Shown: positions 11,834 through 32,735 of the stretch, in pieces
Layout of the letters: the number at the start of each line of letters is the position of its first letter
Position numbering within the stretch: the first letter of the stretch is position 1
Assembly: GCA_016793045.1 (NCBI GenBank)
Contig: JAEUKZ010000202.1
Location: 1-32,735 of the forward strand
Reading direction: 5' to 3'
DNA: 32,735 nucleotides
From: Alphaproteobacteria bacterium
GTDB lineage: Bacteria > Pseudomonadota > Alphaproteobacteria > CACIAM-22H2
Translations under genes and position numbers: made by a program
The notes under the pieces: generated by a model
Seen by the model: only the letters and a program-made list of their open reading frames with translations
The model's database searches: none
Told to the model about the DNA's origin: nothing

Positions 11834-12601
11834 ATGTCAAAGACAGGATCGCAGCCCGTGTCGACGCGGCTCGATGGCCTGAAGGCCGTCGTCACTGGCG
11901 CTGGACGCGGCCTCGGCCGCGCCTGCGCCGCCGCGCTCGCAACGGCGGGTGCCGAAGTCGTCGCGGTCAGCCGCACGAGCACGGATCTCGATGAACTGGT
12001 GAAGGAGATTGCAACCGCAGGCGGGCGCGCGTCTGCCGCCAGCTGCGACGTCACCGATGCCCGGGCCGTCCGCGCCGTCCTCGACGCCGCGCAGCCGGTC
12101 GACATCCTGGTCAACAATGCGGGCGGCAACGCTCCGCAGGCCTTTCTCGATGTCGACGAGGCGACGCTCGACCGCCTGCTGAACTTGAACCTGCGCTCGG
12201 CGTTCCTTGCGGCGCAGGCTGCAGCCCGCCACATGGTGTCGCGCGGGCGCGGCGTGATCATCAACATGTCGTCGCAAATGGGTCATGTCGGCGCACCGAA
12301 CCGGACGGTCTACTGCGCCACCAAGCACGCGGTGGAAGGCCTTACCAAGGCGATGGCGGTGGAACTCGCGCCGTTCGGCGTGCGAGTCGTCGCGGTAGCG
12401 CCGACATTCGTTGAGACGCCGATGACTCGGCCGTTCCTCGCCGATCCCGCTTTCCGCGACACCGTGTTGCGCTCGATCCCGCTCGGACGGACGGCTCAGC
12501 CGGAAGACGTCGCGGCGGCTGTGGCATTCCTCGCCTCACCCGCCGCGTCGATGATCACCGGCACGAGTCTGCTCGTCGATGGCGGCTGGACGGCACGCTA
12601 G
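11834..12601 (+). CDS. Short-chain dehydrogenase/reductase (SDR)
   Basis: The 255-residue product is a classical SDR that oxidises or reduces a hydroxyl/keto group with NAD(P). The Rossmann motif is TGAGRGLG (21-28), NNAG is at 94-97, and the catalytic residues are Ser147, Tyr160 and Lys164 (YCATK). The C-terminal TGTSLLVDGGW is typical of the 3-oxoacyl-reductase/polyol dehydrogenase branch. AGGGGGAG at about 11816-11823 lies ten bases from the ATG at 11834. Another in-frame ATG at 11825 is too close to that site. The gene is followed after 45 bases by a LacI-type operator and the HisD-like gene, so it probably belongs to the same catabolic locus. The substrate cannot be read from the sequence. 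Confidence 0.87.
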   Translation: MSKTGSQPVSTRLDGLKAVVTGAGRGLGRACAAALATAGAEVVAVSRTSTDLDELVKEIATAGGRASAASCDVTDARAVRAVLDAAQPVDILVNNAGGNAPQAFLDVDEATLDRLLNLNLRSAFLAAQAAARHMVSRGRGVIINMSSQMGHVGAPNRTVYCATKHAVEGLTKAMAVELAPFGVRVVAVAPTFVETPMTRPFLADPAFRDTVLRSIPLGRTAQPEDVAAAVAFLASPAASMITGTSLLVDGGWTAR

Positions 12602-12715: not shown

Positions 12716-14014
12716 ATGATCAGGATCCTGAAGCAGGGACGCGATGAAAGTGCGGTAGCGGCGGAGGATGCGCGCGTGCGCGCGGTCGTCGAGGAGATCA
12801 TCGCCGACGTCGTTAAGCGTGGCGACGATGCCGTGCGTACGCTCTCGCAGCGCTTTGACAAATGGGCGCCAGCGACATTCCGCCTGGGCGCAGCGGAGAT
12901 CGAGAGATGCCTTGCCGCCCTCCCCAAGCGCGCCATCGACGACATCAAGTTCGCGCAGACGCAGATCAGGAATTTCGCCCAGGTCCAGCGCGAATCGATG
13001 CGCGACGTCGAGACCGAGACCCTCCCCGGCATCGTCCTCGGCCATCGCCACATTCCCGTCAACAGCGTCGGCTGCTACGTCCCCGGCGGCAAGTACCCGC
13101 TGATCGCTTCGGCGCACATGAGCGTGGTGACGGCGCGCGTCGCCGGCGTGAAACGCGTGATCGCCTGCGCGCCGCCCTACCAAGGCGCGCCCCACCCGGC
13201 GATCGTCGCCGCGATGCATCTCGCCGGCGCTGACGAAATCTATGCGCTGGGAGGGGTCCAGGCGATCGCCGCAATGGCGGTCGGCACGCAGACGATCGCG
13301 CCATGCGACATGGTCGTCGGCCCCGGCAACGCCTATGTGGCCGAAGCCAAACGCCAGCTCTTCGGCCGGGTCGGAATTGACCTGCTCGCCGGCCCGACCG
13401 AGACGCTGATCATCGCCGACGAGAGCTGCGACGGCGAGATGGCGGCGACCGACCTGCTCGGTCAGGCCGAACACGGCCCGAACAGCCCGGCGATCCTGCT
13501 CACCAACAGTGAGGCGCTGGCGCAGGCGACGATGAAAGAGGTCGAACGCCAGCTCGCCGTTCTGTCGACCGGCGAGGTTGCCGGCCAGGCATGGCGCGAC
13601 TTCGGCCAGGTGATCGTCTGCGACACCGAAGACGAGATGATCGCGGAGGCGGACCGGATCGCTTCCGAGCACGTCCAGGTGATGACCCGCGATCCCGACC
13701 GCTTCCTCGCGCGGATGTCGAACTACGGTGCGCTGTTCCTCGGGCCCGAGACCAACGTATCGTACGGCGACAAGGTGATCGGCACCAACCACACGCTGCC
13801 GACCCGGCGGGCGGCGCGCTACACCGGCGGCCTCTGGGTCGGCAAGTTCCTCAAGACCTGCACCTATCAACGCATCAAGACGGCCGAGGCCTCGGCAATG
13901 ATCGGCGAGTTTTGCTCGCGACTGTGCGCGCTCGAGGGATTCGCCGGCCACAAGGAGCAGGCCGATCTGCGCGTACGGCGCTACGGTCGGCGCAACGTCC
14001 CGGCAGCGGAATAG
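12716..14014 (+). CDS. Histidinol dehydrogenase-family dehydrogenase (catabolic, not his operon)
   Basis: The 432-residue product belongs to the HisD family of zinc-dependent, NAD-linked enzymes that oxidise an alcohol to a carboxylate in two steps. Predicted zinc ligands are all present: Gln250 and His253 ([10 protein letters not shown]), Asp352 ([10 protein letters not shown]) and His412 (FAGHKEQ). The catalytic pair is Glu318-His319 ([11 protein letters not shown]). Nucleotide and substrate motifs [11 protein letters not shown] and [13 protein letters not shown] are intact. The context is a LacI regulator, sugar-type ABC genes and an SDR, with no other his genes. This fits the HisD-like branch that includes the sulfopropanediol dehydrogenase HpsN better than histidine synthesis. 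GGGGGA lies five bases before the ATG at 12716; a GTG at 12713 is also in frame. The actual substrate is unknown. Confidence 0.85.
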
Positions 14015-14022
14015 CCGGCGCC

Positions 14023-15078
14023 ATGAAGCGGCCGACGGGGAAGCCGGCGAAGGGGCGGCAGCGCCGCGCCCGCCGCGCGACTTCGGTGGACGTGGCGCGG
14101 CTCGCCGGCGTCTCGCAGTCTGCGGTGTCACGCTGCTTCACGCCGGGCGCAAGCATATCCGAAAAGACCCGCAGCAAGATCCTGGCGGCGGCGCAGCGCC
14201 TCGACTACGCACCCAACGCGATCGCTCGCACGCTGATCAGCGGGCGCTCGCGCATCGTCGGCGTCGTGCTGCCCAACATCACCAACCTCTTTTACCCCGA
14301 AGTGCTGCACGAGCTGAGTCTGCGGCTCCAGGCCGCCGGCCTGCGCGTGCTTTTGTTCAACGTGCCCTACGGCCAGCAGATCGACGACGTGATGCCCGAT
14401 GTCCTGCAGTACCAGGTTGACGGCATCATCACCTCGGCGCGCTGCTCGGCGGCCGTGGGCGCGGACTGCCGGCGCCGCGGCGTGCCGATTGTCTTCTACA
14501 ATCGGGAGTTTCCCGAACTTCCCGGCAGCTCGGTCAAATGCAACCAGGTGGCCGGGGCGGCCCGGCTGGCCGACCTGCTGATCGATGCCGGACATCGACG
14601 GATCGGCCTGATCGCCGGCCCCGACAACTCGCCGACCGCCCATGATCGCGAGCGCGGCTTCGTTCAGCGCCTGCGCGCGCGCGGCGTCGACCTCTGCGCG
14701 CGCGCAGGCGGCGATTTCCTCTACGACATCGCGCGCGCCGCCGCACGATCGATGCTCGGCCAGCCGCGGCGGCCCGATGCACTGTTCTGTGCCAACGACA
14801 CGATGGCATTCGGCGCAATGGACGCGGCGCGGCACGACGTCGGCCTGGCGGTGCCGGATGACGTGTCGATCGTCGGCTTCGACGACTCGGGACCGTCGCG
14901 CTGGCGCGGCTACGATCTGACCACCGTCCGCCAGCCCCTCGAGGCGATGACCGCCGCCGCGGTCGAGCTGCTCGTGCAGAGCTTCGGACAGCCGGGAATG
15001 CCGGCCGCGCGTCGGCTGATCGACGGGGAACTGGTGGTGCGCAGCTCGGCCCGCGTCGCGCCGCCTGCGTCCGATTGA
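14023..15078 (+). CDS. LacI/GalR-family transcriptional regulator
   Basis: The 351-residue product has an N-terminal LacI helix-turn-helix (about 20-42: TSVDVARLAGVSQSAVSRCF) and the hinge-helix motif LAAAQRLDYAPNAIARTL that reads the operator minor groove. A periplasmic-binding-like effector domain starts at RIVGVVLPNITNLFYPEV. The C-terminal half contains PDALFCANDTMAFGAMDAA and VPDDVSIVGFDDS, standard for sugar-responsive members. The gene begins eight bases after the HisD-like stop, so it is probably co-transcribed with it. A matching operator lies both upstream of that pair and just downstream of this gene. It most likely represses the locus and itself until an inducer, perhaps the transported substrate, binds. 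The basic N-terminal tail before the helix-turn-helix is longer than usual. Confidence 0.92.
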   Translation: MKRPTGKPAKGRQRRARRATSVDVARLAGVSQSAVSRCFTPGASISEKTRSKILAAAQRLDYAPNAIARTLISGRSRIVGVVLPNITNLFYPEVLHELSLRLQAAGLRVLLFNVPYGQQIDDVMPDVLQYQVDGIITSARCSAAVGADCRRRGVPIVFYNREFPELPGSSVKCNQVAGAARLADLLIDAGHRRIGLIAGPDNSPTAHDRERGFVQRLRARGVDLCARAGGDFLYDIARAAARSMLGQPRRPDALFCANDTMAFGAMDAARHDVGLAVPDDVSIVGFDDSGPSRWRGYDLTTVRQPLEAMTAAAVELLVQSFGQPGMPAARRLIDGELVVRSSARVAPPASD

Positions 15079-15175: not shown

Positions 15176-16300
15176 ATGGATCAGCGCAGCGCATCCGAGA
15201 GATCCCCGCCCGCGCGCGCTCCGGCCCCGCGGCGGCCGAAAGCCGCCAGCCGACACGCCGACGAGCATGGTTCCGTTCCGGCCGAGCATGGCCGGAACCT
15301 CCGAGGCCCGCGCGACGGCTCTGATGCGGTCTATGCGAACATCGTCGACTACGTCATCCGCAGCACCCACCGCATATGGGAGGAGCGCGGCGTCGGCCTG
15401 ATCTACAGCCATTACAAGCACGACTGCGTCGTCACCACGCCGCTCGCGGTGACGCGCTCGCGCGACGAGGTGGTCGCCTCGACGTTGCGCACCCTCGCGG
15501 GATTTCCGGATCGGCGGGGCCACGACAACGAAGTGGTCTGGAGCGGTGACGATTCCGAAGGCTTCTATTCGTCGCACCGCGTCACCGCGACCACACGCAA
15601 CACGGGTTGGAGCGACTTCGGCCCGCCGACCGGCAAGAAGGTCGTCTGGCGCACGATCGCGGACCGCGTCGTCCGCGCGAACCGTGTCTGCGAGGAATGG
15701 CTCGTCTGCGACTGCATGGCCGTCGTTCACCAAATGGGGCTCGACGTGCGCATGGTGGCGCAGAAGATCGCCGGCCAGAAGGTCGCGCGCGGCGAGACGC
15801 TGCCCGACTACGGCGGGGTCGACCGGACACTCGGCCAGAATCCGCCGCCTGACGCATTCACTGCACCAGGTGCACACGATCCAGCCGAGCGGCTCGTCTG
15901 CCAGGTGCTGCACGACCTGTGGAACCGCCGCCGCTTCGACGTGTTGCGCACCGCCTATGCGCGCAACGTCGTGGCGCACGTGCCGCCGCTCATCGACATC
16001 AGGGGCCAGAACGCCTACGCCGACTACGTTATCGCCCTGCTGGCGATGATCTCAAACGCCGGCCTTATCATCCACCATGTTTGTTCGATCCCGGACGGCC
16101 GCGGCGGCCGCAAGGTCGCCGTGCGCTGGACGCTCGACGGGCACCATGACGGCGCCGGCCGACTCGGCGACCCCACGGGCAAGCGGCTGACGCTTATGGG
16201 CATGTCGCACTATCACGTGCGCGGCGGCAAAGTCGTCGAGGAATGGGCCGTCTTCGACGAGCTGAGCCTGCTCGTTCAACTCGAGATGCCAACCCAGTGA
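15176..16300 (+). CDS. Two-domain SnoaL/NTF2-like protein 1
   Basis: The 374-residue product has two SnoaL/NTF2-type alpha+beta cone domains in tandem. The first is about residues 45-200 (ANIVDYVIRSTHRIWEERG, FYSSHRVTATTRN) and the second about 235-370 (LVCQVLHDLWNRRRFDVL, KVAVRWTLDGHHDG, GMSHYHVRGGKVVEEWAVFDE). Proteins of this fold act as polyketide cyclases, isomerases, dehydratases or small-molecule binders, so the reaction cannot be assigned. It is a clear paralogue of the next gene and more distantly of the one at 24044. The ATG at 15176 is used; a GTG at 15137 is an alternative. The first 40 or so residues are Arg/Pro/Ala-rich and show little similarity to the paralogue, and they contain a hairpin-forming repeat. 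The true start is therefore uncertain. Confidence 0.78.
   Translation: MDQRSASERSPPARAPAPRRPKAASRHADEHGSVPAEHGRNLRGPRDGSDAVYANIVDYVIRSTHRIWEERGVGLIYSHYKHDCVVTTPLAVTRSRDEVVASTLRTLAGFPDRRGHDNEVVWSGDDSEGFYSSHRVTATTRNTGWSDFGPPTGKKVVWRTIADRVVRANRVCEEWLVCDCMAVVHQMGLDVRMVAQKIAGQKVARGETLPDYGGVDRTLGQNPPPDAFTAPGAHDPAERLVCQVLHDLWNRRRFDVLRTAYARNVVAHVPPLIDIRGQNAYADYVIALLAMISNAGLIIHHVCSIPDGRGGRKVAVRWTLDGHHDGAGRLGDPTGKRLTLMGMSHYHVRGGKVVEEWAVFDELSLLVQLEMPTQ
15275..15298. repeat. Perfect nine-base inverted repeat near the SnoaL 1 start
   Basis: GTTCCGGCC (15275-15283) and GGCCGGAAC (15290-15298) are exact reverse complements separated by six bases. The repeat lies in the poorly conserved N-terminal part of the SnoaL-like 1 gene and could fold as a hairpin in the message. 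Confidence 0.5.
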
Positions 16301-16317
16301 GGCGCAAAGGAATCGGC

Positions 16318-17409
16318 ATGAGTTCGAAATCCATATCCGCGCCCGCCCCCGAGGGCGTGCGTCAGGTCGTCTACAACGACATTTCGGCGATCATGGGGCC
16401 CGAAGGGCCGCGCCGGCAGAACCTCAGCGGATTCGACCCGATCTACGCGGACTTCGTGGACTATATCATCCGCTGCACGCACATCATCTGGGACGAACGC
16501 GCCGTCGGCCTCATCGACACGCATTACACGCACAATTCGGTCGTCTTCACGCCTTACCACACGGCGTATTCGCGCGAGGAGATCGTCGCGTCGACCCTGC
16601 GCTCGATGGCCGGCTATGCCGACCGACACGGTTTCGGCAACGAAGTGATCTGGAGCGGCGACGACAAGACCGGCTTCTACTCGTCGCATCGGGTCACGTC
16701 GGTCTGCCGCAATACGGGCTGGACCGAATTCGGGCCGCCGACCCATCGCAAGCTCTCATGGGTCACGGTTGCCGACTGCATGGTGTTCGAGAACCGGATC
16801 TACAAGGAGTGGATCGTTCGCGACTATCTTGCGATCGTGCTCCAACTCGGCCTCAATCCCCGCGAAGTCGGCGCGTCGATGGCCGCCAAGAAGGCCGCCA
16901 AGGGCGAAACGCTTCCGGACTACGGCGACATCGACCGCCTGCGCGGCCAGCTGCCCGCGCCCGAGGCCTGGACCGGCCCGGAAACCGACGATCCGGTCGC
17001 CGCGATGGTCTGCCAGTTCCTTCACGACGTCTGGAACCGCCGTAGGTTTGACCGCATCGCGCAGATCTACGCGCCGCACGCGGTCACCCATGTGCCGCCG
17101 ATGCGCTCGATCATCGGCCGCGAGGCCTATTGCGGCTATGCGATCACGCTGCTGGCGATGATGACCAACGCCGGTCTGCACATCCATCACGTCTGCTCGG
17201 TGCCCGGCACCGGCGGCGAGCGGCTGGTGGCCGTTCGCTGGACCCTCGACGGCCATCACGACGGCCCGGGCCGCCTCGGCGAGCCGACCGGCAAGCGGCT
17301 GAGCCTGTGGGGCATCTCGCACTTCCGCGTCGGCGGCGGACAGATCCTCGAGCACTGGATGGTGGCCGACGAACTCAGCCTCTACGTCCAGCTTGCGATG
17401 CCGGCATGA
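16318..17409 (+). CDS. Two-domain SnoaL/NTF2-like protein 2
   Basis: The 363-residue product is a close paralogue of the preceding one. Shared blocks include IWDERAVGLI, VASTLRSMAGYADRHG, NEVIWSGDD, FYSSHRVTSVCRNTGW in the first domain and VCQFLHDVWNRRRFDRI, VAVRWTLDGHHDG, GRLGEPTGKRLSL in the second. Both domains have the NTF2 cone pattern. Repeated His, Asp and Trp residues (SSHR, DGHHDG, VADELS) would line the two pockets and are candidate catalytic or binding residues. AAAGGA precedes the ATG at 16318 by seven bases, and only 17 bases separate it from the previous stop. The pair is therefore one transcript, probably under operator site 2. No close characterised relative comes to mind. An isomerase, dehydratase or lactone-opening role in the catabolic pathway is possible. 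Confidence 0.82.
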   Translation: MSSKSISAPAPEGVRQVVYNDISAIMGPEGPRRQNLSGFDPIYADFVDYIIRCTHIIWDERAVGLIDTHYTHNSVVFTPYHTAYSREEIVASTLRSMAGYADRHGFGNEVIWSGDDKTGFYSSHRVTSVCRNTGWTEFGPPTHRKLSWVTVADCMVFENRIYKEWIVRDYLAIVLQLGLNPREVGASMAAKKAAKGETLPDYGDIDRLRGQLPAPEAWTGPETDDPVAAMVCQFLHDVWNRRRFDRIAQIYAPHAVTHVPPMRSIIGREAYCGYAITLLAMMTNAGLHIHHVCSVPGTGGERLVAVRWTLDGHHDGPGRLGEPTGKRLSLWGISHFRVGGGQILEHWMVADELSLYVQLAMPA

Positions 17410-17426
17410 GCGGCGGAACGCCCGGC

Positions 17427-17443
17427 TTGCATACGTAGTCCAA
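17427..17443. promoter_or_regulatory. LacI-type operator, site 3 (TTGCATACGTAGTCCAA)
   Basis: The site differs from site 2 by one base over 17. It lies 18 bases after the SnoaL-like 2 stop and about 150 bases before the ABC binding-protein ATG, placing the import operon under the same regulator. Confidence 0.75.
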
Positions 17444-17500
17444 CGGCCTCGGCCATGACCGAAGGGTGGGAGAATCCGCACCGACGACGCAGTTTCGCTT

Positions 17501-17523
17501 CGTCACCCCGGCGAGGGGTGACG
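17501..17523 (+). repeat. Leader hairpin of the ABC operon (CGTCACCCC stem)
   Basis: CGTCACCCC (17501-17509) and GGGGTGACG (17515-17523) form a perfect nine-base-pair stem with a GGCGA loop. A weaker stem (GCCGG 17540-17544 with CCGGC 17552-17556) follows. They lie between operator site 3 and the start codon of the binding-protein gene. They could be a REP-like element or part of a structured leader. No T-run follows, so a terminator is unlikely. Confidence 0.55.
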
Positions 17524-17591
17524 CCACGACGGGGAGGAAGCCGGGTCTCATCCGGCAATCGCGCATAGGACATCCGAAGAAGGAGACAACC

Positions 17592-18911
17592 ATGCTTTTC
17601 GATCGCAGACAGTTCCTCGGTGCGACCGCCGGCGCCGCCGCCACCGCGGCACTCGGCCAGAACGCGTTGGCCCAGGCCCCTGGGGCGGCGTTCGTCCCGA
17701 CGCCGGGCAAGCCGTGGAACGGCACCGAGCTCAAGGTGCTGTGCGTCGTCGCTTCGCAGTTCCGCGCCCACGAGGCGCGCGTGCCGCAGTTCACCGAGGC
17801 GACCGGCATCCGCGTCACCTACACCAATGTTCCGTTCGGCAATCTGCGTGAAACGCTGACGGCCGAAATGGTCGGCGGCGCGCGGACATACGACCTCGCG
17901 GTCGCGATGGACAGCTGGGTGCCCTCGCTCGCCAATCTGTGGGACCCGATCGACGAGCGCGTGCGTGCGGCGAACGTCGATCTTGAGCGCTATCCCAACG
18001 CCTTCCTGCATGCCGGCCGCATCGACGGCAAGCTGCTCGGCCTGCCGGTGCGCTGCCACGTGCAGCTCATGTTCTACCGCAAGGACCTCTTCCAGCAGGC
18101 GGGCATGCAGCCGCCGAACACCTGGGACGACGTCGTCAATGCCGGCAAGGCGATCCAGGAGCGCAACCCGAACGTCTCCGGCATCGCGATGTACTACGGC
18201 AAGAACGCCGGCCAGAACCTGATGATCTGGTACAACTTCCTGTGGGGCAAGGGCGTCGACCTCTTCGACGCGCAGGGCCGCCCGTCGTTCAACAGCGAAG
18301 GCGGCATCGCGGCGACGCGCGACTACATCGGCCTGCTGCGCGAACATCGCGTGGCCTCGCCGGGCTCGCTCACCTTCAACGAAGGCGACGCGACGACGTC
18401 GTTCGTGCAGGGCAACGCCGCGATGATCCCGGTGTGGTGGTGGGTCATCTCGCGCATGACCGATCCCAACCAGTCGCGTCTCACGCGCGAACAGGTCGGT
18501 TTCGTGCCGCTGCCCACCTATGCGGGCGCGCCGCGCTCGACCTACACCAACTCCTGGCCCTTCGGCATCACGCGCGGCTCGACGAAGAAGGATGCCGCCT
18601 TCGAGTTCCTGCGCTGGATGACCCACCCCTCGATCGAGCGCAGCATCCTCCTCGACCCCCGGGAGACCGACGTCGTCTCCGTCCACTGGTCGAACCTGCG
18701 CGACCCGGAGGTCAACCAGCGCTTCAACGGCATGCACAACTTCGCCGCCCAGACGCTCGAGCGCACACGCGTGTTCACCTACACGACGCAGACGCTGCCG
18801 ATGATCGAGGTGATGGAGAACATCATGTCCGACATGGCGACGGGTGCGAAGCAGATCCCCGAGGGACTGAACGAAATGGCGAGCCGCGTCGCGCGGATCG
18901 TCCGGCGTTGA
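17592..18911 (+). CDS. ABC transporter substrate-binding protein (sugar type)
   Basis: The 439-residue product is a family 1 extracellular solute-binding protein that captures a substrate in the periplasm for the membrane complex encoded next. It has a Tat-type signal (DRRQFLGATAG, residues 4-14) with cleavage near ALA (27). The mature protein opens with GTELKVLCVVASQF and has FTEATGIRVTYTNVPF, DLAVAMDSWVPSLANLWDP and FVQGNAAMIPVWWW, all typical of the sugar-binding cluster. AAGGAG lies seven bases before the ATG at 17592. The leader contains a LacI-type operator and a hairpin. Related proteins bind mono- or oligosaccharides, polyols and glycerol-phosphate-like compounds. The ligand here is unknown. 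Confidence 0.9.
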   Translation: MLFDRRQFLGATAGAAATAALGQNALAQAPGAAFVPTPGKPWNGTELKVLCVVASQFRAHEARVPQFTEATGIRVTYTNVPFGNLRETLTAEMVGGARTYDLAVAMDSWVPSLANLWDPIDERVRAANVDLERYPNAFLHAGRIDGKLLGLPVRCHVQLMFYRKDLFQQAGMQPPNTWDDVVNAGKAIQERNPNVSGIAMYYGKNAGQNLMIWYNFLWGKGVDLFDAQGRPSFNSEGGIAATRDYIGLLREHRVASPGSLTFNEGDATTSFVQGNAAMIPVWWWVISRMTDPNQSRLTREQVGFVPLPTYAGAPRSTYTNSWPFGITRGSTKKDAAFEFLRWMTHPSIERSILLDPRETDVVSVHWSNLRDPEVNQRFNGMHNFAAQTLERTRVFTYTTQTLPMIEVMENIMSDMATGAKQIPEGLNEMASRVARIVRR

Positions 18912-18929
18912 TTCCATCCGGCTGAGGAT

Positions 18930-18974
18930 TTCCGGATGCGGGCGGGTGGACCGACTGCCCACCCGCATCCGGAA
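18930..18974 (+). promoter_or_regulatory. Strong hairpin between binding-protein and permease genes
   Basis: TTCCGGATGCGGG (18930-18942) pairs perfectly over 13 bases with CCCGCATCCGGAA (18962-18974), and inner GGG/CCC pairs extend the stem. No T-run follows. The likely effect is stabilising the upstream message or partly stopping read-through, so that more binding protein than permease is made. Confidence 0.8.
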
Positions 18975-18991
18975 CCCAAACGTCGATTGCC

Positions 18992-19867
18992 ATGTCCGAT
19001 CGCCTTCTCAAATACCTCCTGCTGCTGCCGGCAATTCTCATCGTCGTGCTGACGACGGTCTATCCGCTGGCCTTCTCGCTGATCACGTCGTTCCGCGACT
19101 GGGATCTTACGCGCAATCTCGAGCCCACCGGCTTCGTCGGGTTCGAGAACTACGTCTACGCGCTGACCGAGGATTACGACTTCTACGACGCGGTGCGCGT
19201 CACCGTCTGGTTCGTCGTTCTCGACGTCGCCGCGACGGTGCTGATCGCGCTCGGCCTCGCGGTCATTCTCCGGCGCAACGGCACACTGCACCGCGCCACG
19301 CGCGTGCTGCTGATCCTGCCCTTCGCGATGAGCCCGGCTCTGATCGGGATTTCCTGGCGCTTCATGTTCAATCCGGAGGTCGGGGTCTTCACCTACGTGC
19401 TCGGCGTGCTGTTCCCGTGGCTGCGCGGTCAGGCCTGGCTCGCCGATCCCACGCTCGCCATGGCGGCGATGGTGAGTTGCGACGTCTGGCACTGGATGCC
19501 GTACATGACCCTGGTCCTGCTCGGCGGTCTCGCCTCTCTGCCGCGCGACAGCGAGGAAGCCGCGCGGATCGACGGCGCGAGCGAATGGCGCGTGTTCCTC
19601 GACGTCACGTTGCCTCAGCTCCGCCCGGTGATCGCGGTCGTGACCATCCTCAAGACCGTCTTCGCCCTCAAGATGTTCGACCAGGTGGTGACGCTCACCG
19701 GCGGCGGCCCGGGCAACCGGACCGCGACGCTGGCATACCTCGTCTACCGGGTCGCATTCAGCGCCTTCGACATGGGCGCGGCCTCGGCGCTGGCCTGGAT
19801 CCTGACGGCCGTGCTGATCGCGCTCGGCGCATACTACATGCGCTTCCTGATCGTGAAGGCACACTGA
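18992..19867 (+). CDS. ABC transporter permease 1 (MalF/UgpA type)
   Basis: The 291-residue inner-membrane permease has about six transmembrane helices, the first at about 8-28 (LLLLPAILIVVLTTVYPLAF). The cytoplasmic EAA loop, which contacts the ATPase, is EEAARIDGASEWRVFLDVTLP near residues 188-208. It follows the binding-protein gene after a hairpin and is followed two bases after its stop by permease 2. It has only a weak ribosome-binding site. Length and layout match sugar permeases of the MalF/UgpA branch without the extra MalF periplasmic loop. Confidence 0.9.
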   Translation: MSDRLLKYLLLLPAILIVVLTTVYPLAFSLITSFRDWDLTRNLEPTGFVGFENYVYALTEDYDFYDAVRVTVWFVVLDVAATVLIALGLAVILRRNGTLHRATRVLLILPFAMSPALIGISWRFMFNPEVGVFTYVLGVLFPWLRGQAWLADPTLAMAAMVSCDVWHWMPYMTLVLLGGLASLPRDSEEAARIDGASEWRVFLDVTLPQLRPVIAVVTILKTVFALKMFDQVVTLTGGGPGNRTATLAYLVYRVAFSAFDMGAASALAWILTAVLIALGAYYMRFLIVKAH

Positions 19868-19869
19868 CG

Positions 19870-20724
19870 ATGGCGGCGGACTTCGAAGCCCCGCGGATCT
19901 CGTACGCGACGCGCCGGCGCCTCGCCCGCGTGGCGGAGACGACGATCCTGCTGATCACCCTCGCGATCATCGTCTTTCCGATCGCCTGGATCATCACCAC
20001 GGCATTCAAGACGCCGCGCGACGTCTACGACCTGTCGATCGTCTTCCCGCCAACGGTCCAGAACTTCGTCATCGCGTTCAACGCGCCGTGGAATCTCGGC
20101 AGCAAGCTGGTCAACAGCATCGTCGTGTCGACCGTCACGGTGGGCATCGCGATTCCGATCGCCACGCTCGCCGCCTACTCGTTCTCGCGCTTCGAGTTCT
20201 TCATGAAGCGGAGCTTGTTCCTGCTGGTGCTGGCGACGCAGTTCATTCCCGCCGTCGTGATCATCCTGCCGTTCTTCCTGATGTTCCGGGACGTGGCCCT
20301 GATGGACACGCGCACCGGCCTCATCATCGTCAATCTCGCGATCGTCACGCCCTTCGCGGTCTGGATGATCAAGGGCTACCTCGACGCCATTCCGAACGAA
20401 AGCGAGGAGGCCGCGCTGGTCGACGGCGCCAGCCGCGTGCGGGTGATCTTCGACGTCGTCGTGCCGATGGCGCTCCCGGGAATGATCACGGCCGCAGTGT
20501 TCTGCTTCATCCTGACCTGGAACGAGTTCATCTTCGCCCTGATCCTCACGCGCGAGAACGCGGTGACGCTGCCGGTCGGGCTGATCAGCTTCCGCACCGA
20601 GCGCGGCGACTGGTGGGAGCTGATCGCGGCCTCCGGGATCATCATCACGGTTCCGATGTTCATGCTGGCGCTGGTGATTCAGCGCCATTTCGTCAAGGGA
20701 ATGACGATGGGCGCGGTAAGGTAG
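19870..20724 (+). CDS. ABC transporter permease 2 (MalG/UgpE type)
   Basis: The 284-residue product is the second membrane subunit of the importer. A first helix at about 22-42 (ETTILLITLAIIVFPIAW) precedes FKTPRDVYD, a segment typical of MalG-type subunits. The EAA loop is EEAALVDGASRVRVIFDVVVP near 179-199, and the C-terminus ends FVKGMTMGAVR, the usual MalG-like tail. The ATG at 19870 lies two bases after the permease 1 stop, indicating translational coupling. The ATPase gene begins two bases after its own stop. Confidence 0.92.
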   Translation: MAADFEAPRISYATRRRLARVAETTILLITLAIIVFPIAWIITTAFKTPRDVYDLSIVFPPTVQNFVIAFNAPWNLGSKLVNSIVVSTVTVGIAIPIATLAAYSFSRFEFFMKRSLFLLVLATQFIPAVVIILPFFLMFRDVALMDTRTGLIIVNLAIVTPFAVWMIKGYLDAIPNESEEAALVDGASRVRVIFDVVVPMALPGMITAAVFCFILTWNEFIFALILTRENAVTLPVGLISFRTERGDWWELIAASGIIITVPMFMLALVIQRHFVKGMTMGAVR

Positions 20725-20726
20725 TC

Positions 20727-21782
20727 ATGGCAGAAATCGTCCTTTCCGGCGTCACCAAGCGCTTCGGCGACTTCGTCGCCGTCCACACGCTCGACCTCGC
20801 GGTCGTCGACCGCGAGTTCCTCGTTCTCCTCGGCCCATCGGGCTGCGGCAAGACGACGACGATGCGGATGATCGCCGGCCTCGAGGAGCCGAGCGCAGGG
20901 GAGATCCGCATCGGCGGCCGGGTCGTCAACGACCTGCCGCCGCGCGCGCGCGACGTCGCCATGGTCTTCCAGAACTACGGGCTCTACCCGCACATGTCGG
21001 TGGCCGACAACATCGGCTACCCGCTCAAGCTGCGCGGCGTGCCGCGCGAGGAGCGTGCAGCTCAAGTCCGCGCCGTTGCAGCGAAGGTCCGGCTGGATGG
21101 CCTGCTGGAACGAAAGCCCGCCGCGCTGTCGGGCGGCCAGCGCCAGCGCGTCGGCCTCGCCCGCGCGCTGATCCGCAAGCCGACGGTCTTCCTGATGGAC
21201 GAGCCGCTGTCGAACCTCGACGCCAAGCTGCGCGTCGAGATGCGCGCCGAACTCAAGCATCTTCATCACGAGCTCGCGGTGACGACCGTCTACGTGACGC
21301 ATGACCAGATCGAGGCCATGACGCTCGCCACGCGCGTCGCGGTGATGAACAAGGGGATCATCCACCAGCTCGGCACGCCCGACGAGATCTACAACGAGCC
21401 TGCAGACCTGTTCGTCGCCGGCTTCATCGGCTCGCCAGCGATGAACCTCATCGACGGCCGGATCGACGACGGCACCTTCGTCGCCGGCCGGTTGCGGATC
21501 GACGGCCTCGGCCGGAGTACGCGCGAATCGGTCGTGCTCGGCATCCGGCCGGAGGACATGACGATCGGGCCGGCGGGATCGGGGCACGGCGACCTGCCCG
21601 TCTATTCCAGCGAACTCACCGGCGACTCGACGCTGATCACCCTCGCCGACGGCAACACGCGCATCGCGGTGCGGGCGGACAAGACCGTCCGACCGGCGAT
21701 CGACGATGTCGTCGCGCTGCGGATCGATCCGCGACGCTGCTACCTCTTCGACGCCGCGACGACGCGCCGGCTCGCAATCTGA
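20727..21782 (+). CDS. ABC transporter ATPase (MalK/UgpC type)
   Basis: The 351-residue ATPase energises the importer on the cytoplasmic side. Walker A is GPSGCGKT (36-43), the Q-loop is at Gln82 (VFQNYGLYPHM), the signature is LSGGQ (134-138), Walker B is VFLMDEP (154-160) with Glu159, and the switch His is His192 (THDQIEAMTL). A C-terminal TOBE/MalK-like regulatory domain (about 235-351) includes LGIRPEDM. This class can pair with several sugar permeases. It completes a full importer with the three genes upstream, and the bicupin gene follows after 23 bases. Confidence 0.93.
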   Translation: MAEIVLSGVTKRFGDFVAVHTLDLAVVDREFLVLLGPSGCGKTTTMRMIAGLEEPSAGEIRIGGRVVNDLPPRARDVAMVFQNYGLYPHMSVADNIGYPLKLRGVPREERAAQVRAVAAKVRLDGLLERKPAALSGGQRQRVGLARALIRKPTVFLMDEPLSNLDAKLRVEMRAELKHLHHELAVTTVYVTHDQIEAMTLATRVAVMNKGIIHQLGTPDEIYNEPADLFVAGFIGSPAMNLIDGRIDDGTFVAGRLRIDGLGRSTRESVVLGIRPEDMTIGPAGSGHGDLPVYSSELTGDSTLITLADGNTRIAVRADKTVRPAIDDVVALRIDPRRCYLFDAATTRRLAI

Positions 21783-21805
21783 GCTTCACACCAAAGGCCT
21801 CAACG

Positions 21806-22834
21806 ATGACCCAGCCCTGGACTCCGGAACGCATGGCGCAGCGGATCGTGCGCTACGGCGAACTGATTCCCTGCACCGCCGCCTTCATCGACGCGAAGAC
21901 GCCCGGGTCGCACCTCAAGGAGAACTTCACGATCATCGGTCCGGGCGTCGCCGAGAACCCGCGCCAACACGTGCACATCCGCGAACCGCACGGATTCAAC
22001 ATCGGCGGGGCGCGCCAGCCACCGCGGATCGTCAACTCGCAGCACAGTCACGACACCGCGGAGGTCTTCATGGTGCTCAAGGGCACCTGGAGCTTCATTC
22101 TCGGCCCCAGGAAGGAGGACGGAGCGGTCACGTTGCAGCCCGGCGACGTCATCTCCATCCCCACCCACGTCTTCCGCGGGTTCGAGAATGTCGGCAGCGA
22201 GATGGGATTCCTGTTTGCGATCCTCGGCGGCGACGACCCGGGGCACGTCACATGGTCGCCCGACGTTCTCCATGCCGCGCATGGCCACGGCCTCATCCTG
22301 CTCGAGGACGGGCGGCTCGTCGACACCACGATCGGCGAGCAGATCCCTGCGGGTGCGAAGGTCGCGCGCCCTCTCGGCGCCGCGGAGATGGCGCGCTTCC
22401 ATCGCTACGGCGCCGCAAAGATGGGCTTGGTGCGCCGCGACGAACTCGTTCCTGCGCCTGCAGCCGGACTGCCCGGTATCGAGCAGCGTTGCGCGCTGGT
22501 GATCGCCGACGATCCAGCGGCACCCATCGCATGGCCGCATGGCTTCAGCCTGCGCGCCCTGCAGCTGCGCAACGGCGAGGCCAGCCGGCCGGCACGTTTC
22601 GATCGCCAGGTCGTCCTGCTTGTCCATGACGGCCAATGGCGGCTCGAGTGGGACGACCGGCACGGCGGCCACGGCGCGGTCGATCTTGCCGGCGGCGACA
22701 GCGTCACGGTTCCCGACGGCGTCGACCACTCGGTCCGGCAGGTGGCACCCGGCGGCGGGCTTTGCTGGATGGTGACGCGCGGCGACCGTCCGGTCGCGGC
22801 GCTGCAATCCGGTGCCGCCGCCACCGTCGCCTGA
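21806..22834 (+). CDS. Bicupin protein
   Basis: The 342-residue product appears to contain two cupin barrels. The N-terminal cupin keeps metal ligands: HSH at 80-82 and Glu86 in QHSHDTAEVFMVLKG, and His121 in IPTHVFRGFEN. The C-terminal barrel (about 235-330, with WRLEWDD, GGDSVTVPDGVDHSVRQV) keeps the fold pattern but lacks the full HxH...E set, so it may be structural. Bicupins include oxalate decarboxylases, dioxygenases, isomerases and sugar-acid enzymes; the N-terminal region here has no match I can name. AAAGG lies upstream of the ATG at 21806. It is the fifth gene of the probable ABC operon and lies 11 bases from the MetE-like gene. A metal-dependent step on the imported compound is the likely role. 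Confidence 0.8.
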   Translation: MTQPWTPERMAQRIVRYGELIPCTAAFIDAKTPGSHLKENFTIIGPGVAENPRQHVHIREPHGFNIGGARQPPRIVNSQHSHDTAEVFMVLKGTWSFILGPRKEDGAVTLQPGDVISIPTHVFRGFENVGSEMGFLFAILGGDDPGHVTWSPDVLHAAHGHGLILLEDGRLVDTTIGEQIPAGAKVARPLGAAEMARFHRYGAAKMGLVRRDELVPAPAAGLPGIEQRCALVIADDPAAPIAWPHGFSLRALQLRNGEASRPARFDRQVVLLVHDGQWRLEWDDRHGGHGAVDLAGGDSVTVPDGVDHSVRQVAPGGGLCWMVTRGDRPVAALQSGAAATVA

Positions 22835-22845
22835 GGGGCTCCGCG

Positions 22846-24000
22846 ATGCACGTTTCGACCGACCGGATCCTCACGACCCATGTCGGCAGTCTGCCGCGCT
22901 CCGCTGCCGTCACCGAGATGGTCTACGCCGAGGAGAACGACAGGCCGATCGACCATCGCCGCTTCGACGCGGTGATCGCCGAGGCGGTGCGGGACGCAAT
23001 CGCCCGCCAGCGCAAGTCGGGCGTCGACGTCGTCAGCGACGGCGAAATGAGCAAGATCAGCTACGCGACCTATATCCGTCATCGGCTGACCGGCTTCGCC
23101 GGCGATTCGCCGCGCCGCGTGCCGCAGGATCTCGAGGCCTATCCGAACTATCTCGGCCGGGCGGCGAAGGGTGGCACGACGCCCACCTATCGCCGGCCGC
23201 GCTGCGTCGGCCCGATCGCGGTCAAGACGCTGGACCCGCTGCATGTCGACATCGCGACAATGAAGGCGGCGCTCGCCGGTTCCGGCGCGACGGAAGGCTT
23301 CATGAACTCCGCATCGCCCGGCGTGATCGCGCTGTTCCAGCCCGACGAGCACTATGGCGACCACCGCAAGTACCTCGAGGCGATCGGCAATGCGATGCAG
23401 GCCGAGTATGAGGCGATCGCTGCCTCAGGTCTGCTGATACAGATCGACTCGCCCGACCTCGCGCTCGGCCGTCACATGATGTTCAAGGGCCGCGGCGAGG
23501 CCGAGTTCCTCGCCATGGCCGAACTGCACGTCGAGGTTCTGAATCACGCGCTGCGGAACGTTCCGCGCGACTCCGTCCGGCTCCACATCTGCTGGGGCAA
23601 CTACGAGGGGCCGCATCACTGCGACATCGACCTCGAGAAGATCCTGCCGATCGTCGTCAAGGCGCGCGCGCGCGCGATTTCCTTCGAAGGCGCCAATCCG
23701 CGCCATGCCCATGAGTGGCGCGCCTTTACCCGCACCAAGATCCCGGACGATCTGGTGCTCATGCCCGGCGTGCTCGATTCGACGTCGAACTTCATCGAGC
23801 ATCCCGAGCTGGTTGCCGAGCGCATCGAGCGATTCGCGGCGATCGTCGGCCGAGAACGCGTCATTGCGAGCTCGGATTGCGGCTTCTCGACGTTCGCCGG
23901 CTTCGGGGTCGTCGATCCGGACATCGTGTACGCGAAACTGGAAGCGCTCGCCCAGGGAGCGGCGATCGCGAGCGCACGGCTTTGGGGCCGTCCGGACTGA
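22846..24000 (+). CDS. Stand-alone MetE C-terminal-like zinc methyltransferase family protein
   Basis: The 384-residue product corresponds to the catalytic C-terminal barrel of cobalamin-independent methionine synthase and lacks the N-terminal half. TTHVGSLPRS (10-19) is the phosphate/folate-side signature of the family. The thiol-activating zinc ligands are all present: His247 and Cys249 (RLHICWGNYEG), Glu281 (ISFEGANPR) and Cys345 (SSDCGFST). Single-domain relatives include archaeal core MetE and epoxyalkane:coenzyme M transferase, and many uncharacterised ones occur in catabolic clusters. So it could move a methyl group onto a thiol or add a thiol to an electrophile. GAGGGG lies eight bases before the ATG at 22846. 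Its place between the bicupin and SnoaL-like 3 argues against housekeeping methionine synthesis. Confidence 0.83.
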   Translation: MHVSTDRILTTHVGSLPRSAAVTEMVYAEENDRPIDHRRFDAVIAEAVRDAIARQRKSGVDVVSDGEMSKISYATYIRHRLTGFAGDSPRRVPQDLEAYPNYLGRAAKGGTTPTYRRPRCVGPIAVKTLDPLHVDIATMKAALAGSGATEGFMNSASPGVIALFQPDEHYGDHRKYLEAIGNAMQAEYEAIAASGLLIQIDSPDLALGRHMMFKGRGEAEFLAMAELHVEVLNHALRNVPRDSVRLHICWGNYEGPHHCDIDLEKILPIVVKARARAISFEGANPRHAHEWRAFTRTKIPDDLVLMPGVLDSTSNFIEHPELVAERIERFAAIVGRERVIASSDCGFSTFAGFGVVDPDIVYAKLEALAQGAAIASARLWGRPD

Positions 24001-24043
24001 CGACGCCTCGCCCTGCAGCAACCCCACGCCCGACCGAGGGACC

Positions 24044-25012
24044 ATGAAAGGCTTCAATCCGCGCTTCAAGGATCTGCCCGACTTCATCCTCGGGATCACC
24101 AAGGAGATCTGGGAGGATCGTGGAATCGCGACGCTGCACCACTACTACGGGGAACGTCTGGCGGTGCGCTCGCCGGCGTCGGTCGTCGTCGGCAATACCA
24201 ACGTGATCGCGGCCACGATGGCGACGCTCGCGGAGTTTCCCGACCGCACGCTGCTGGGCGAGGACGTGATCTGGCTGGGCAACGAGGACGACGGATTCCT
24301 GTCGTCGCACCGGCTGCTCTCGACCGCGACGCACAGCGGCGACGGCGCCTACGGCCGCGCCAGCGGCCGGAAACTCTGCTACCGCATCATCGCGGACTGC
24401 GCCGCGCGCGAGAACCAGATATACGACGAATGGCTGGTGCGCGATCAGGGCGCAATCGTCCGCCAGCTCGGGATCGATCCGAAGCGCTACGCGGCCGACC
24501 GTATCGCCGCCGAAGGCGGACCGGCCAGCTGCATCAAGCCGCTCACGCCGGACACCGACGTCACGCCGAGCTATGCCGGACGCGGCAATGACAATGAGTG
24601 GGGGCAGCGCTATGCCGACCTCCTCACCCGCATCATGTCGGCCGACTTGGCCGCGATCCCGAAGATCTACGACCGCGCCCTGCAGCTCGAGATGCCCGGC
24701 GGCGTCACCGGCCATGGCTGGGAGGCGGCGGACCGCTTCTGGCTCGGCCTGCGCAGTGCGTTCCCCTCGGCCGAGTTCCGCATCGACCACGTGATCGGGC
24801 GGGAAGACCCGATGATGCCGCCGCGCGCAGCGCTGCGCTGGAGCCTGTGGGGACGCCACGACGGCTTCGGCGCGTTCGGCGAACCCACGCATGCGATGGT
24901 CTACGTCCTCGGCATCAGCCATGCCGAGTTCGGCCCGTGGGGGCTGCGGCGCGAATGGGTGCTCTACGACGAAACGGCGATCTGGAAGCAGATTGTCATC
25001 AAGACCGGCTGA
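24044..25012 (+). CDS. Two-domain SnoaL/NTF2-like protein 3
   Basis: The 322-residue product is a third, more diverged member of the SnoaL-like set in this locus. The first domain keeps DFILGITKEIWEDRGIATL, VIAATMATLAEFPDRT, DGFLSSHRLLSTATHSG and IYDEWLVRDQGAIVRQLG, which align with the same blocks in the other two. The second domain keeps LRWSLWGRHDGFGAFGEPT and LGISHAEF. The closest parts are the SSHR and EEW/DEWLVRD segments, so these may carry function. GAGGGA stands very close to the ATG at 24044. It is the last gene of the probable ABC operon, 43 bases after the MetE-like gene, and is far from the other two copies. Confidence 0.78.
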   Translation: MKGFNPRFKDLPDFILGITKEIWEDRGIATLHHYYGERLAVRSPASVVVGNTNVIAATMATLAEFPDRTLLGEDVIWLGNEDDGFLSSHRLLSTATHSGDGAYGRASGRKLCYRIIADCAARENQIYDEWLVRDQGAIVRQLGIDPKRYAADRIAAEGGPASCIKPLTPDTDVTPSYAGRGNDNEWGQRYADLLTRIMSADLAAIPKIYDRALQLEMPGGVTGHGWEAADRFWLGLRSAFPSAEFRIDHVIGREDPMMPPRAALRWSLWGRHDGFGAFGEPTHAMVYVLGISHAEFGPWGLRREWVLYDETAIWKQIVIKTG

Positions 25013-25261: not shown

Positions 25262-26224
25262 ATGTCGTCTCTCCCCGGAAATTCGCCCCGCCGCGCCTTC
25301 CTGACCGTGGTTCCCGAGCAGGATGCGGACGTCGTACGCGGACTCACCTCGGCCGTTCGGCTCGACATTCTGCGGACGCTGCGTCAGCGCGGACCGCTCA
25401 ACATCAACGGGATCGCGGAAGCGCTCGGTTTGCCGCAGTCCACCGTTGCCACGAACATCCAGGTTCTGGAGGACGTCGCGCTCGTGCATACGGAGGCGGT
25501 GAAGGCGAGCAAGGGACAGCAGAAGGTCTGCTCGGTGCGCTTCGACGAGATCGTGATCCGGCTGGATGGAAGCCCGGTCCGCAAGGCGCAGGACATCATC
25601 GAAGTGGGAATGCCGATCGGCCTCTACACCGGATATGAAGTAAGCGCTCCGTGCGGCCTTTGCTCGACCGAAAGCATCATCGGACCACTCGACGTTCCGG
25701 ACCTGTTTCTCGACCCGGCCCGCATGAACGCCGCCCTGATTTGGTTCGGCCGCGGCTTCGTCGAATACAAGTTTCCGAACAACGCCAAGGTGCTCAAGAC
25801 CGAGCTGTCCGCGCTCGAGTTCAGCCTGGAACTCTCGTCGGAGGTTCCGGGCACCAACACCAACTGGCCGTCGGACATCTCGCTGTGGGTGAACAGCACG
25901 AAGCTCGGCACCTGGAACTCTCCGGGTGACTATGGGGACAAGCGCGGTCGCTTCACCCCGTCCTGGTGGAAACTCGGCGGGTCGCAATACGGCGAGCTGA
26001 CGACCTGGCGAGTCACCGAACGCGGGACATTCGTCAACAACAAGCGTGTATCGGGGATCACACTCGCCGCGTTGAAACTGCACGAACATCACTCGATCCG
26101 CCTGCGCGTCGGCATCGAAGAGGGCGCGCGTCACCCGGGCGGCGTGAACATTTTCGGCCGCGGCTTCGGCAACCACGATCAGGATATCGTGATGCGGCTC
26201 CATCTGAAGCGCAGGGCGGCCTGA
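25262..26224 (+). CDS. ArsR-type winged-helix regulator with long C-terminal domain
   Basis: The 320-residue product opens with an ArsR-like winged helix (about 20-92). LTSAVRLDILRTLRQRGPLN is the first part, INGIAEALGLPQSTVATNI is the helix-turn-helix, and the wing follows to QQKVCSVRFDEI. Typical ArsR proteins stop near 110 residues. Here about 210 more follow, rich in strands and aromatics (FVEYKFPNNAKVLKTELSAL, TNTNWPSDISLWVNSTKLGT, GDYGDKRGRFTPSWWKLGGS). They look like a beta-sandwich that could bind a carbohydrate. A Cys pair lies in the linker (APCGLCSTES). It precedes an Opp-type transporter and a GH51 arabinofuranosidase gene, so it probably senses an arabinoside. The ATG at 25262 has a poor ribosome-binding site. 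Confidence 0.78.
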   Translation: MSSLPGNSPRRAFLTVVPEQDADVVRGLTSAVRLDILRTLRQRGPLNINGIAEALGLPQSTVATNIQVLEDVALVHTEAVKASKGQQKVCSVRFDEIVIRLDGSPVRKAQDIIEVGMPIGLYTGYEVSAPCGLCSTESIIGPLDVPDLFLDPARMNAALIWFGRGFVEYKFPNNAKVLKTELSALEFSLELSSEVPGTNTNWPSDISLWVNSTKLGTWNSPGDYGDKRGRFTPSWWKLGGSQYGELTTWRVTERGTFVNNKRVSGITLAALKLHEHHSIRLRVGIEEGARHPGGVNIFGRGFGNHDQDIVMRLHLKRRAA

Positions 26225-26365
26225 GCGCGCCGCCCGCGGCAGGGTGTTCGTATCAGGATTTTGGATTATTATCGGATATACGGTTGACGTGGCCGCATGC
26301 GCACGCTTACCCTTTTCGCAATCCGCCAAATCAATCGGCGGTATCAAGATAGGGAGTGAACGGCC
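26225..26365 (+). promoter_or_regulatory. Probable promoter region of the Opp-type operon
   Basis: This 141-base gap is unusually A/T-rich around 26250-26285 for this window. TTGACG at 26284-26289 is a fair -35 box, with TTACCC 17 bases downstream as a weak -10. GGGAG at about 26352 is the ribosome-binding site. A CCGCC-N9-GGCGG inverted repeat (26323-26341) lies in the leader and may be an operator. Confidence 0.4.
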
Positions 26366-28264
26366 ATGACGCTGACCAGGCGCTCGGCGCTTCTGTCGCC
26401 GCTGGCTCTTACGGCGCTCGCGCATCTTCCCGCAGCCGCGCAGGAGGTGATCGCCGGGCTTCCACGCCGCGAGACGATCATCCTCGAGAACCCGGAGGGG
26501 ACTATCCGCAATTCGGGATGGTTCAACATCTGGGCGCTCAATGCCGGCGGCCAGTCCACGGGGCTGCAACAGCTCACGCTGGACACGCTCTGGTACATCG
26601 ACCCCGACCGCGGGATCGACGGCCAAGCATGGGACAACTCGCTTGCCGCCGCGCCGCCGGAGTACAACGCGGACTTCACCGAGATGCGCGTGCGCCTGCG
26701 CGACGGCATCTTCTGGAGCGACGGCGTCGAGTTCACCTCGGCCGACGTCGTTCACACGGTCCAGACGCAGATCGCGCATCGCACCCTGCGCTGGCACGCC
26801 ATCCTGGCGCTCAACGTCGAGCAGGTGACCGCACCCGACGCGCGCACCGTCGTCTTCCGCCTGCGCCGGCCGAACTCGCGCTTTCACGCGCAGTTCACGG
26901 TGCGTTGGGGTGCCATCTGGATCATGCCGAAGCATGTGTTCGAGCGGCAGGCGGATCCCGCGCGCTTCGATTTCAACCCGCCCATCTCGCTCAGCGCCTA
27001 TGTGCTGCGCAACTTCGATCCCAACGGGAAATGGTACATCTGGGAGAAGCGGCAGGACTGGCGGCGCACCTCTCTCGCCCGCTTCGGGGAACCCGGACCG
27101 CGCTACGCCGTCTACGTCGACCCCGGCCCGCCGGATAGGCGCGTGATCTCGCAGCTGAACCACGAGCTCGACGTGATCCATGACACGTCGCCAGAAGGGG
27201 TGTTCACGCTCGCCCGCCAGTCGCAGACCGCACGCGGCTGGTTCCGCGGTTTACCCTATGCCCATCCCGACCCGACCCTGCCATCGGTGATCTTCAACCA
27301 CCAGAACGCGCTGTTTCAGAACCGCGACGTCCGCTGGGCGCTGGCGCTGCTGATCGACATTCGCGCCGTCTCCATGGCGAGCTATCGCGGAGCAGCAACG
27401 ATATCGGCGATCGCCATCCCGCCGACCGGCACGCATCCCTCGGACTATCACTCGGCGCTCGAGCCGTGGGTCGCGGATTTCGAGCTCGACACCGGGCGCC
27501 AGAAGATCAAGCCGTACGAGGCCAACGTCGGCCGCGCCATCGCCGACTCGCTGCGTCCAAGCATGCGCGACCAGATTCCTACCGACCCGGAGCAGATCGC
27601 GCGCTCCTTCGGCTTGGGCTGGTGGCGAATGAACCAGCAGGCCGCGGCCGAGCTGCTCGAGCGCGCCGGCTTCCGCCGCGTCAACAACCAGTGGCAGACC
27701 GCGGACGGACGGCCGTTCAGCGTCCGCTTGATGGTGGAGGGCGAAGCCCGGCCGATCATGACCCGCGCCGGCACCATGATCGTGCAGAACTGGCGGCAGT
27801 TCGGCATCGACGCGCGGGTCGACGTGGCTCAGGGGACGTTCTTCGACCGCCGCGGCGCTGGTGACTTCGACACGCTCATCGGATGGTCGGTGGAGACCTA
27901 TGGCGGCCACCCGGACCTGAGCTACTTCCTCGACAGCTGGCACTCGGCCTATGTTGCCCAACCCGGCCAGGTGCAGCCGCTGCGCAACTGGGGGCGCTGG
28001 CGCGCGCCCGAGCTCGACGCGCTCATCGAGCGGATGCGCACCGTCGGCTTCAACGACCCGCGCACCGTCGAGGTCGGCAAGGATTTCGCGAAGCTGATGG
28101 TCCGCGAGATGCCGATCATTCCGCTGATGGCCTACAACGTCTTCACGATGATGGACGAGCACTTCTGGACCGGGTTCCCCAATGCGGAGAACCCGTACAC
28201 CAATCCCGTCACCAACTGGGGCAATTCCCGCTACATGTTCACGCGCCTGCGGCCCCGGGCGTAA
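26366..28264 (+). CDS. ABC transporter substrate-binding protein (Opp/Dpp type)
   Basis: The 632-residue product is a family 5 solute-binding protein, the large class that binds oligopeptides or oligosaccharides. A signal with twin Arg (TRRSALLSPLALTAL) ends near AAAQ. Family landmarks are TLWYIDPDRG, VRLRDGIFWSDGVEFTSADV (about 107-126), VFRLRRPNSRF, and the late FDTLIGWSVETYGGHPDLSYF. Several such proteins in plant-associated bacteria carry plant cell-wall oligosaccharides. The GH51 gene at the end of this operon suggests an arabino-oligosaccharide ligand rather than a peptide. The start at 26366 is supported by GGGAG upstream. A terminator-like hairpin follows the gene. Confidence 0.9.
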   Translation: MTLTRRSALLSPLALTALAHLPAAAQEVIAGLPRRETIILENPEGTIRNSGWFNIWALNAGGQSTGLQQLTLDTLWYIDPDRGIDGQAWDNSLAAAPPEYNADFTEMRVRLRDGIFWSDGVEFTSADVVHTVQTQIAHRTLRWHAILALNVEQVTAPDARTVVFRLRRPNSRFHAQFTVRWGAIWIMPKHVFERQADPARFDFNPPISLSAYVLRNFDPNGKWYIWEKRQDWRRTSLARFGEPGPRYAVYVDPGPPDRRVISQLNHELDVIHDTSPEGVFTLARQSQTARGWFRGLPYAHPDPTLPSVIFNHQNALFQNRDVRWALALLIDIRAVSMASYRGAATISAIAIPPTGTHPSDYHSALEPWVADFELDTGRQKIKPYEANVGRAIADSLRPSMRDQIPTDPEQIARSFGLGWWRMNQQAAAELLERAGFRRVNNQWQTADGRPFSVRLMVEGEARPIMTRAGTMIVQNWRQFGIDARVDVAQGTFFDRRGAGDFDTLIGWSVETYGGHPDLSYFLDSWHSAYVAQPGQVQPLRNWGRWRAPELDALIERMRTVGFNDPRTVEVGKDFAKLMVREMPIIPLMAYNVFTMMDEHFWTGFPNAENPYTNPVTNWGNSRYMFTRLRPRA

Positions 28265-28277
28265 GCAGGTCTGCGGT

Positions 28278-28306
28278 GCGGGGCGATCGCGCGTCGCCCC
28301 GCTTTT
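28278..28306 (+). terminator. Terminator-like hairpin after the Opp-type binding-protein gene
   Basis: GCGGGGCGA (28278-28286) pairs perfectly with TCGCCCCGC (28294-28302) across a seven-base loop and is followed by TTTT. This is an intrinsic terminator in form. It lies inside the operon, 13 bases after the binding-protein stop and 25 bases before the permease ATG. Partial termination that favours the binding protein is the likely effect. Confidence 0.8.
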
Positions 28307-28331
28307 CCACGCGGCGATCAGGGAGCGGTCG

Positions 28332-31259: not shown

Positions 31260-31263
<4 letters not shown>
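30220..31263 (+). CDS. ABC transporter ATPase 1 (OppD/DppD type)
   Basis: The 347-residue ATPase has Walker A GESSSGKS (62-69), signature LSGGM (179-183), Walker B with IADEP (201-205), and switch His237 (VTHDMS). The C-terminal oligopeptide-transporter extension is present: PGCRFHPRCPLAMPIC and a later Cys339, giving four cysteines (308, 314, 321, 339). In DppD-type proteins such cysteines bind an iron-sulfur cluster. It is one half of the heterodimer with the next gene, which starts inside its stop codon (ATGA overlap). Confidence 0.92.

Positions 31264-32735
<1,472 letters not shown>

Follow-up and report, generated by a model that had tools for sequence, protein, structure and literature searches.

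Double-cone SnoaL-like proteins of two old types in a recurrent gene array that looks like an undescribed catabolic pathway

Three genes in one array of the window (the whole stretch of DNA that was analysed, 32,735 nucleotides) encode proteins of the SnoaL/NTF2 superfamily with two fused cones each, here called A, B, and C, and the gene set around them looks like an undescribed catabolic pathway. From sequence features, and with moderate confidence, we propose that these proteins catalyse non-redox steps by which a polyhydroxylated compound, once imported, is broken down. The sequence itself shows which domains the proteins have, how the genes are ordered, that the module recurs, and that an importer is encoded along with HisD-like, SDR, cupin, and MetE-like proteins (Table 1); the pathway steps were deduced. 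From the SDR gene to C (11.8 to 25.0 kb), every gene lies on the plus strand, separated by short gaps. Upstream of the module, on the minus strand (4897-7897), a gene for a sulfatase-family protein adjoins one for an AraC-type regulator; on the other side (25262-32735), an HTH regulator is followed by an oligopeptide-type ABC transporter that runs into the contig end. No PKS or NRPS domains were found by Pfam in the window ORFs scanned, and polyketide biosynthesis was rejected as a role on that ground.

Table 1. Genes of the array in the window, and a single-cone SnoaL gene found in related modules.
Feature	Coordinates	Strand	Evidence
SDR-family oxidoreductase	11834..12601	+	Pfam adh_short_C2 6e-63; start inferred from SD-like context
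HisD-like dehydrogenase, catabolic subfamily, GKYPL not GRYAH	12716..14014	+	Histidinol_dh 4.5e-140; best PDB relative HpsN 8v35
LacI-family regulator	14023..15078	+	Pfam LacI + Peripla_BP_3; start inferred
SnoaL copy A, double cone (D1 ~48-200, D2 ~236-372)	15176..16300	+	Pfam SnoaL, tree, hhalign
SnoaL copy B, double cone, tandem sister of A	16318..17409	+	Pfam SnoaL, tree, model pLDDT 83.2
Substrate-binding protein (SBP), sugar-type ABC importer, Tat-type signal	17592..18911	+	SBP_bac_1 4e-43, TAT_signal; start inferred
ABC permease 1	18992..19867	+	blastp to annotated sugar permease of related module
ABC permease 2	19870..20724	+	BPD_transp_1 5e-20; start inferred
ABC ATPase, MalK/UgpC type	20727..21782	+	ABC_tran + TOBE_2; start inferred
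Cupin protein	21806..22834	+	Cupin_2 2.4e-12
MetE-like protein, Zn-ligand motifs intact	22846..24000	+	Meth_synt_2 1.3e-16; HxC, E, DCG motifs; start inferred
SnoaL copy C, double cone, ancient subfamily	24044..25012	+	Pfam SnoaL, tree, model pLDDT 88.7
Single-cone SnoaL next to HisD	L005:5294-5824; equivalents in L010, L014, L057-L062		

The reading frames of A, B, and C are open across their coordinates and encode 374, 363, and 322 aa. All three products belong to the Pfam family SnoaL (PF07366; E-values 2.4e-29, 4.9e-22, and 2e-12), with bit scores of 102, 78.5, and 47.5 against a curated cut-off of 28.4, and a genome search identified them as the sole double-cone SnoaL genes of this genome. 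A and B share 57-59% identity and either shares 27-30% with C, far above chance (B versus C, E 4.6e-44), which together with the common family bears out the original prediction of paralogy. The two cones of A/B differ in their identity to C, at 35-37% for D1 and just 24-26% for D2.

When the alignment was split in halves, the D1 and D2 profiles proved homologous to each other (hhalign probability 98.7, E 2.8e-16). AlphaFold models of C and B, built from input alignments of 12 and 18 sequences, respectively, each contain two complete NTF2/SnoaL cones, seen as two cone-type series of helices and strands, and Foldseek matched these models to SnoaL, IdmH, and AclR. Profiles and models thus agree on the fused double cones that had been predicted, and structure prediction, proposed at the outset as a check that might reveal no cone at all, does show cones in B and C. 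The cone fold of A is taken from the sequence identity to B given above. The nearest solved folds include single-cone enzymes; a sequence search for a solved double-cone homologue found none.

The copies are not equivalent. They had been described as one fold retained three times, but a tree of 57 double-cone proteins places C in a separate ancient subfamily (clade support 99/99 including outer members, 100/99 for its 20-row core), apart from the clade that contains A and B (99/99, with 100/99 for its 19-row core). Identity of C orthologues is 51-73% in alphaproteobacteria; in Vibrio, and in a single genome from another class of the phylum, it is 58-60%. A/B-type relatives are 40-46% identical. 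Of the 289 genomes sampled from the class, 23 (~8%) encode C-type proteins or their relatives. Judged by these sequences, the locus is composed of two old types, C and A/B, of which the A/B type was doubled by local tandem duplication.

Within the A/B clade, A and B are sisters (98/94) that fall outside the remaining A/B-type proteins, and their genes lie in tandem, 17 bp apart. This arrangement favours a reading in which A and B serve mainly to raise dosage and are largely redundant, so that the functionally distinct proteins number two, C and one of the A/B type. We consider this possible though rather unlikely, because A and B are just ~58% identical and because, of 136 columns conserved among the remaining 17 A/B proteins, 13-14 are changed in A alone and 13-14 in B alone. 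The lone changes include Cys to R164 in A and Arg to V149 in B, both on the strand that carries an invariant Ala-Asp; such departures are compatible with split roles and fall short of proof. The concern that the copies might be recent redundant duplications therefore touches the A/B tandem pair, but even these two have diverged and have kept the clade-invariant residues.

The motif blocks originally thought to be common to the three proteins are partly confirmed. SSHR is present in A, B, and C, and the D2 block reads WTLDGHHDG in A and B and WSLWGRHDG in C, but the supposed DEW/EEW block of D1 (EEW in A, DEW in C) is KEW in B. Most A/B orthologues beyond the window have TSHL in place of SSHR, and HHLG, HHTG, or HHFG in place of HHDG. 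The family invariants are an S-H pair and an H-x-G frame, not the exact words SSHR and HHDG, and the Asp of HDG is variable: A/B relatives have Leu, Thr, or Phe at this position, and several C orthologues have Ser or Glu. The frames GxH-x-G and xxW-x-x-x-D also occur in solved single-cone relatives, e.g., IdmH, and thus mark the superfamily.

When both clades are taken together, conservation reaches at least 90% in 42 columns. In C numbering, these include W23, R26, Y35, R68, S88, H89, R114, D118, E129, W130, D134, and Q141 in D1, and Y209, H249, R265, W266, H272, H293, D309, and Q316 in D2; among them, potentially catalytic side chains include H89, D118, E129, and D134 (D1) and H249, R265, H272, H293, and D309 (D2). 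SnoaL catalysis uses Asp121 and His107 (PMC6830212). According to a sequence alignment via the 1sjw match, these positions are occupied by L/I/V and A in D1 and mostly by V/A/T and S/T/C in D2, so SnoaL chemistry by those residues is unlikely; the position of SnoaL His119 is an invariant Glu in D1. We rejected SnoaL-type aldol cyclisation, as Asp121 and His107 are missing in both cones. The idea that conserved His and Asp positions hint at catalysis survives in modified form: the invariant polar residues suggest a function beyond the fold, but the HDG Asp is not conserved and the SnoaL pair is absent. Both cones have further invariant residues that would suit a different, putative active site.

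With Asp121 and His107 gone, catalysis is not guaranteed, and the proteins may instead bind a ligand or act in regulation; in many cases, NTF2 folds serve for binding alone. A, B, and C could be non-catalytic binders or carriers of the NTF2 type that keep a reactive intermediate sequestered, shuttle it, or sense it for the LacI regulator, and both the loss of the SnoaL residues and the presence of one to five copies per module would suit such a role. We regard it as unlikely, as charged residues are invariant in both clades and both domains and the genes are placed among catabolic enzymes.

Versions of the module are carried by chromosomes as well as plasmids in Roseibium, Ruegeria, Paracoccus, Martelella, Ensifer, Vibrio, Pantoea, Deinococcus, and Priestia, a spread that covers Alpha- and Gammaproteobacteria, Deinococcus, and Priestia, with one to five SnoaL genes per locus. 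Multi-SnoaL modules annotated as "ester cyclase" (Ruegeria, Paracoccus, Ensifer, Vibrio, Deinococcus, and Pantoea) have the same gene set and SnoaL subfamilies as the window, whereas copy number and accessory enzymes (RraA, HpcH, OtnK, and amidase) vary. Frequent extras elsewhere are an RraA or HpcH aldolase, an alpha/beta hydrolase, and an amidase or C-N hydrolase. The window contig has neither an aldolase nor an alpha/beta hydrolase, and RraA and hydrolase homologues are encoded on other contigs of the genome. In the Pantoea and Priestia modules, an MFS transporter replaces the ABC importer. A single-cone SnoaL protein (related to SnoaL 1sjw, E 3e-11) adjoins HisD in many modules and is absent from the window. 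A literature search for the module (SnoaL or ester cyclase with HisD, LacI, ABC importer, or roseobacters) found no account of it, which is weak evidence because the search was mainly of open-access work.

The 19 C-containing loci encode a sugar SBP (18), another SnoaL protein (18), a cupin (18), HisD (16), LacI (16), a MetE-like protein (15), and an SDR (14); as the loci were chosen for holding a C orthologue and some are cut by contig ends, these counts are descriptive, with no formal test. Two small alphaproteobacterial genomes (1.4-1.6 Mb; L066 and L067) retain a module version with C, HisD, cupin, and MetE-like genes, which suggests a widely available substrate.

NTF2 proteins dimerise, and the double-cone copies occur together in 18 of the 19 loci, as would be expected if A, B, and C were subunits of one hetero-oligomer. 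This proposal of the original prediction appears distinctly unlikely. Some modules (L004 and L013) have a single double-cone gene each, so an obligate A+B+C complex is not general, and the A/B pair is a lineage-level duplication. Multi-copy occurrence as such fits a hetero-oligomer or successive steps alike.

The closest solved relative of the HisD-like protein in the window is HpsN, a DHPS-3-dehydrogenase (8v35, E 2.5e-118), and the SBP is distantly related to SmoF. Both relationships would be in line with a module that degrades a sulfonate such as DHPS, with HisD acting as HpsN. In HpsN, however, the motif GRY[AS]H ends in the sulfonate-recognising His126, whereas the window HisD has GKYPL; module HisDs carry G[KR][FY]P[MLI], with Leu, Met, or Ile in place of His126 in 39 of 39 readable members. 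The missing histidine disfavours DHPS or sulfonate catabolism and makes this reading extremely unlikely. A role in histidine biosynthesis is likewise disfavoured, because a second HisD on another contig of the genome (42% identical to the window HisD) has a different motif, GTAAY. As the module motif differs from those of both HpsN and the other HisD, the window HisD is probably an enzyme of a third kind, distinct from both histidinol dehydrogenase and DHPS dehydrogenase. The MetE-like proteins have the Zn-ligand motifs HxCWGN and DCG in 19 of 19 cases, and the Glu was found in the window protein by alignment; these motifs suggest thiol or methyl chemistry.

In the catalytic reading that we prefer, A, B, and C would act as soluble proteins within the pathway encoded by the array. 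The importer may take up a small polyhydroxylated compound. The HisD-like enzyme would convert a primary alcohol into a carboxylate, and the SDR would oxidise a secondary alcohol. A, B, and C themselves may isomerise, dehydrate, or ring-open intermediates that either follow one another or are alternatives, with one conserved step by C and a second step common to A and B or split between them. Of the two cones, D1 is the better conserved and the more likely to be catalytic, and D2 may be a second site or a structural partner. Elsewhere, the alpha/beta hydrolase and an RraA or HpcH aldolase would complete the breakdown.

A more specific and highly speculative version is that the double-cone proteins catalyse new ring-opening or isomerisation steps, while the HisD-like enzyme oxidises a hydroxymethyl group and the MetE-like protein removes a methyl group, in an undescribed, widespread pathway for O-methylated cyclohexenone sunscreens (mycosporine-like amino acids and gadusol) as the candidate substrate class. 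The match lies in the hydroxymethyl and O-methyl groups, the enaminone, and retro-aldol chemistry of mycosporines and gadusol, and the candidate is a chemical inference only; a literature search on mycosporine catabolism found nothing relevant. Whatever the substrate, recurrence of the module across the class and across phyla points to a common environmental compound without an assigned breakdown route. Multi-copy double-cone proteins are the hallmark of the module and could supply new non-redox chemistry, with a fold whose known examples so far are mostly isomerases or belong to biosynthesis.

The polyketide cyclases SnoaL (1sjw) and AknH share the cone fold, the PF07366 profile, and the GxH-x-G and xxW-x-x-x-D frames with A, B, and C, but they have a single cone and a biosynthetic context, whereas A, B, and C have a double cone, a catabolic context, and no equivalent of Asp121 and His107. 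The best single-cone fold matches by Foldseek are IdmH (6hnn), AclR, and SnoaL2 (2gex and 8r2b), with a TM-score to the target of ~0.65-0.82. IdmH resembles A, B, and C in having no Asp/His pair of the SnoaL type; all three matches differ in being single-cone proteins of polyketide pathways with ~14-22% identity. Two NTF2-type cones in one chain, as in A, B, and C, are found in the fused epoxide hydrolase Lsd19 (3rga), and Lsd19 and the MonBI-MonBII chain are, among the matches listed, the sole solved chains that span both cones of B (335 and 324 columns). Both belong to polyether biosynthesis and are only 7-13% identical to B, and the rmsd of ~17 Å over both cones suggests that the relative placement of the cones may differ from that in Lsd19 and MonBI-MonBII.
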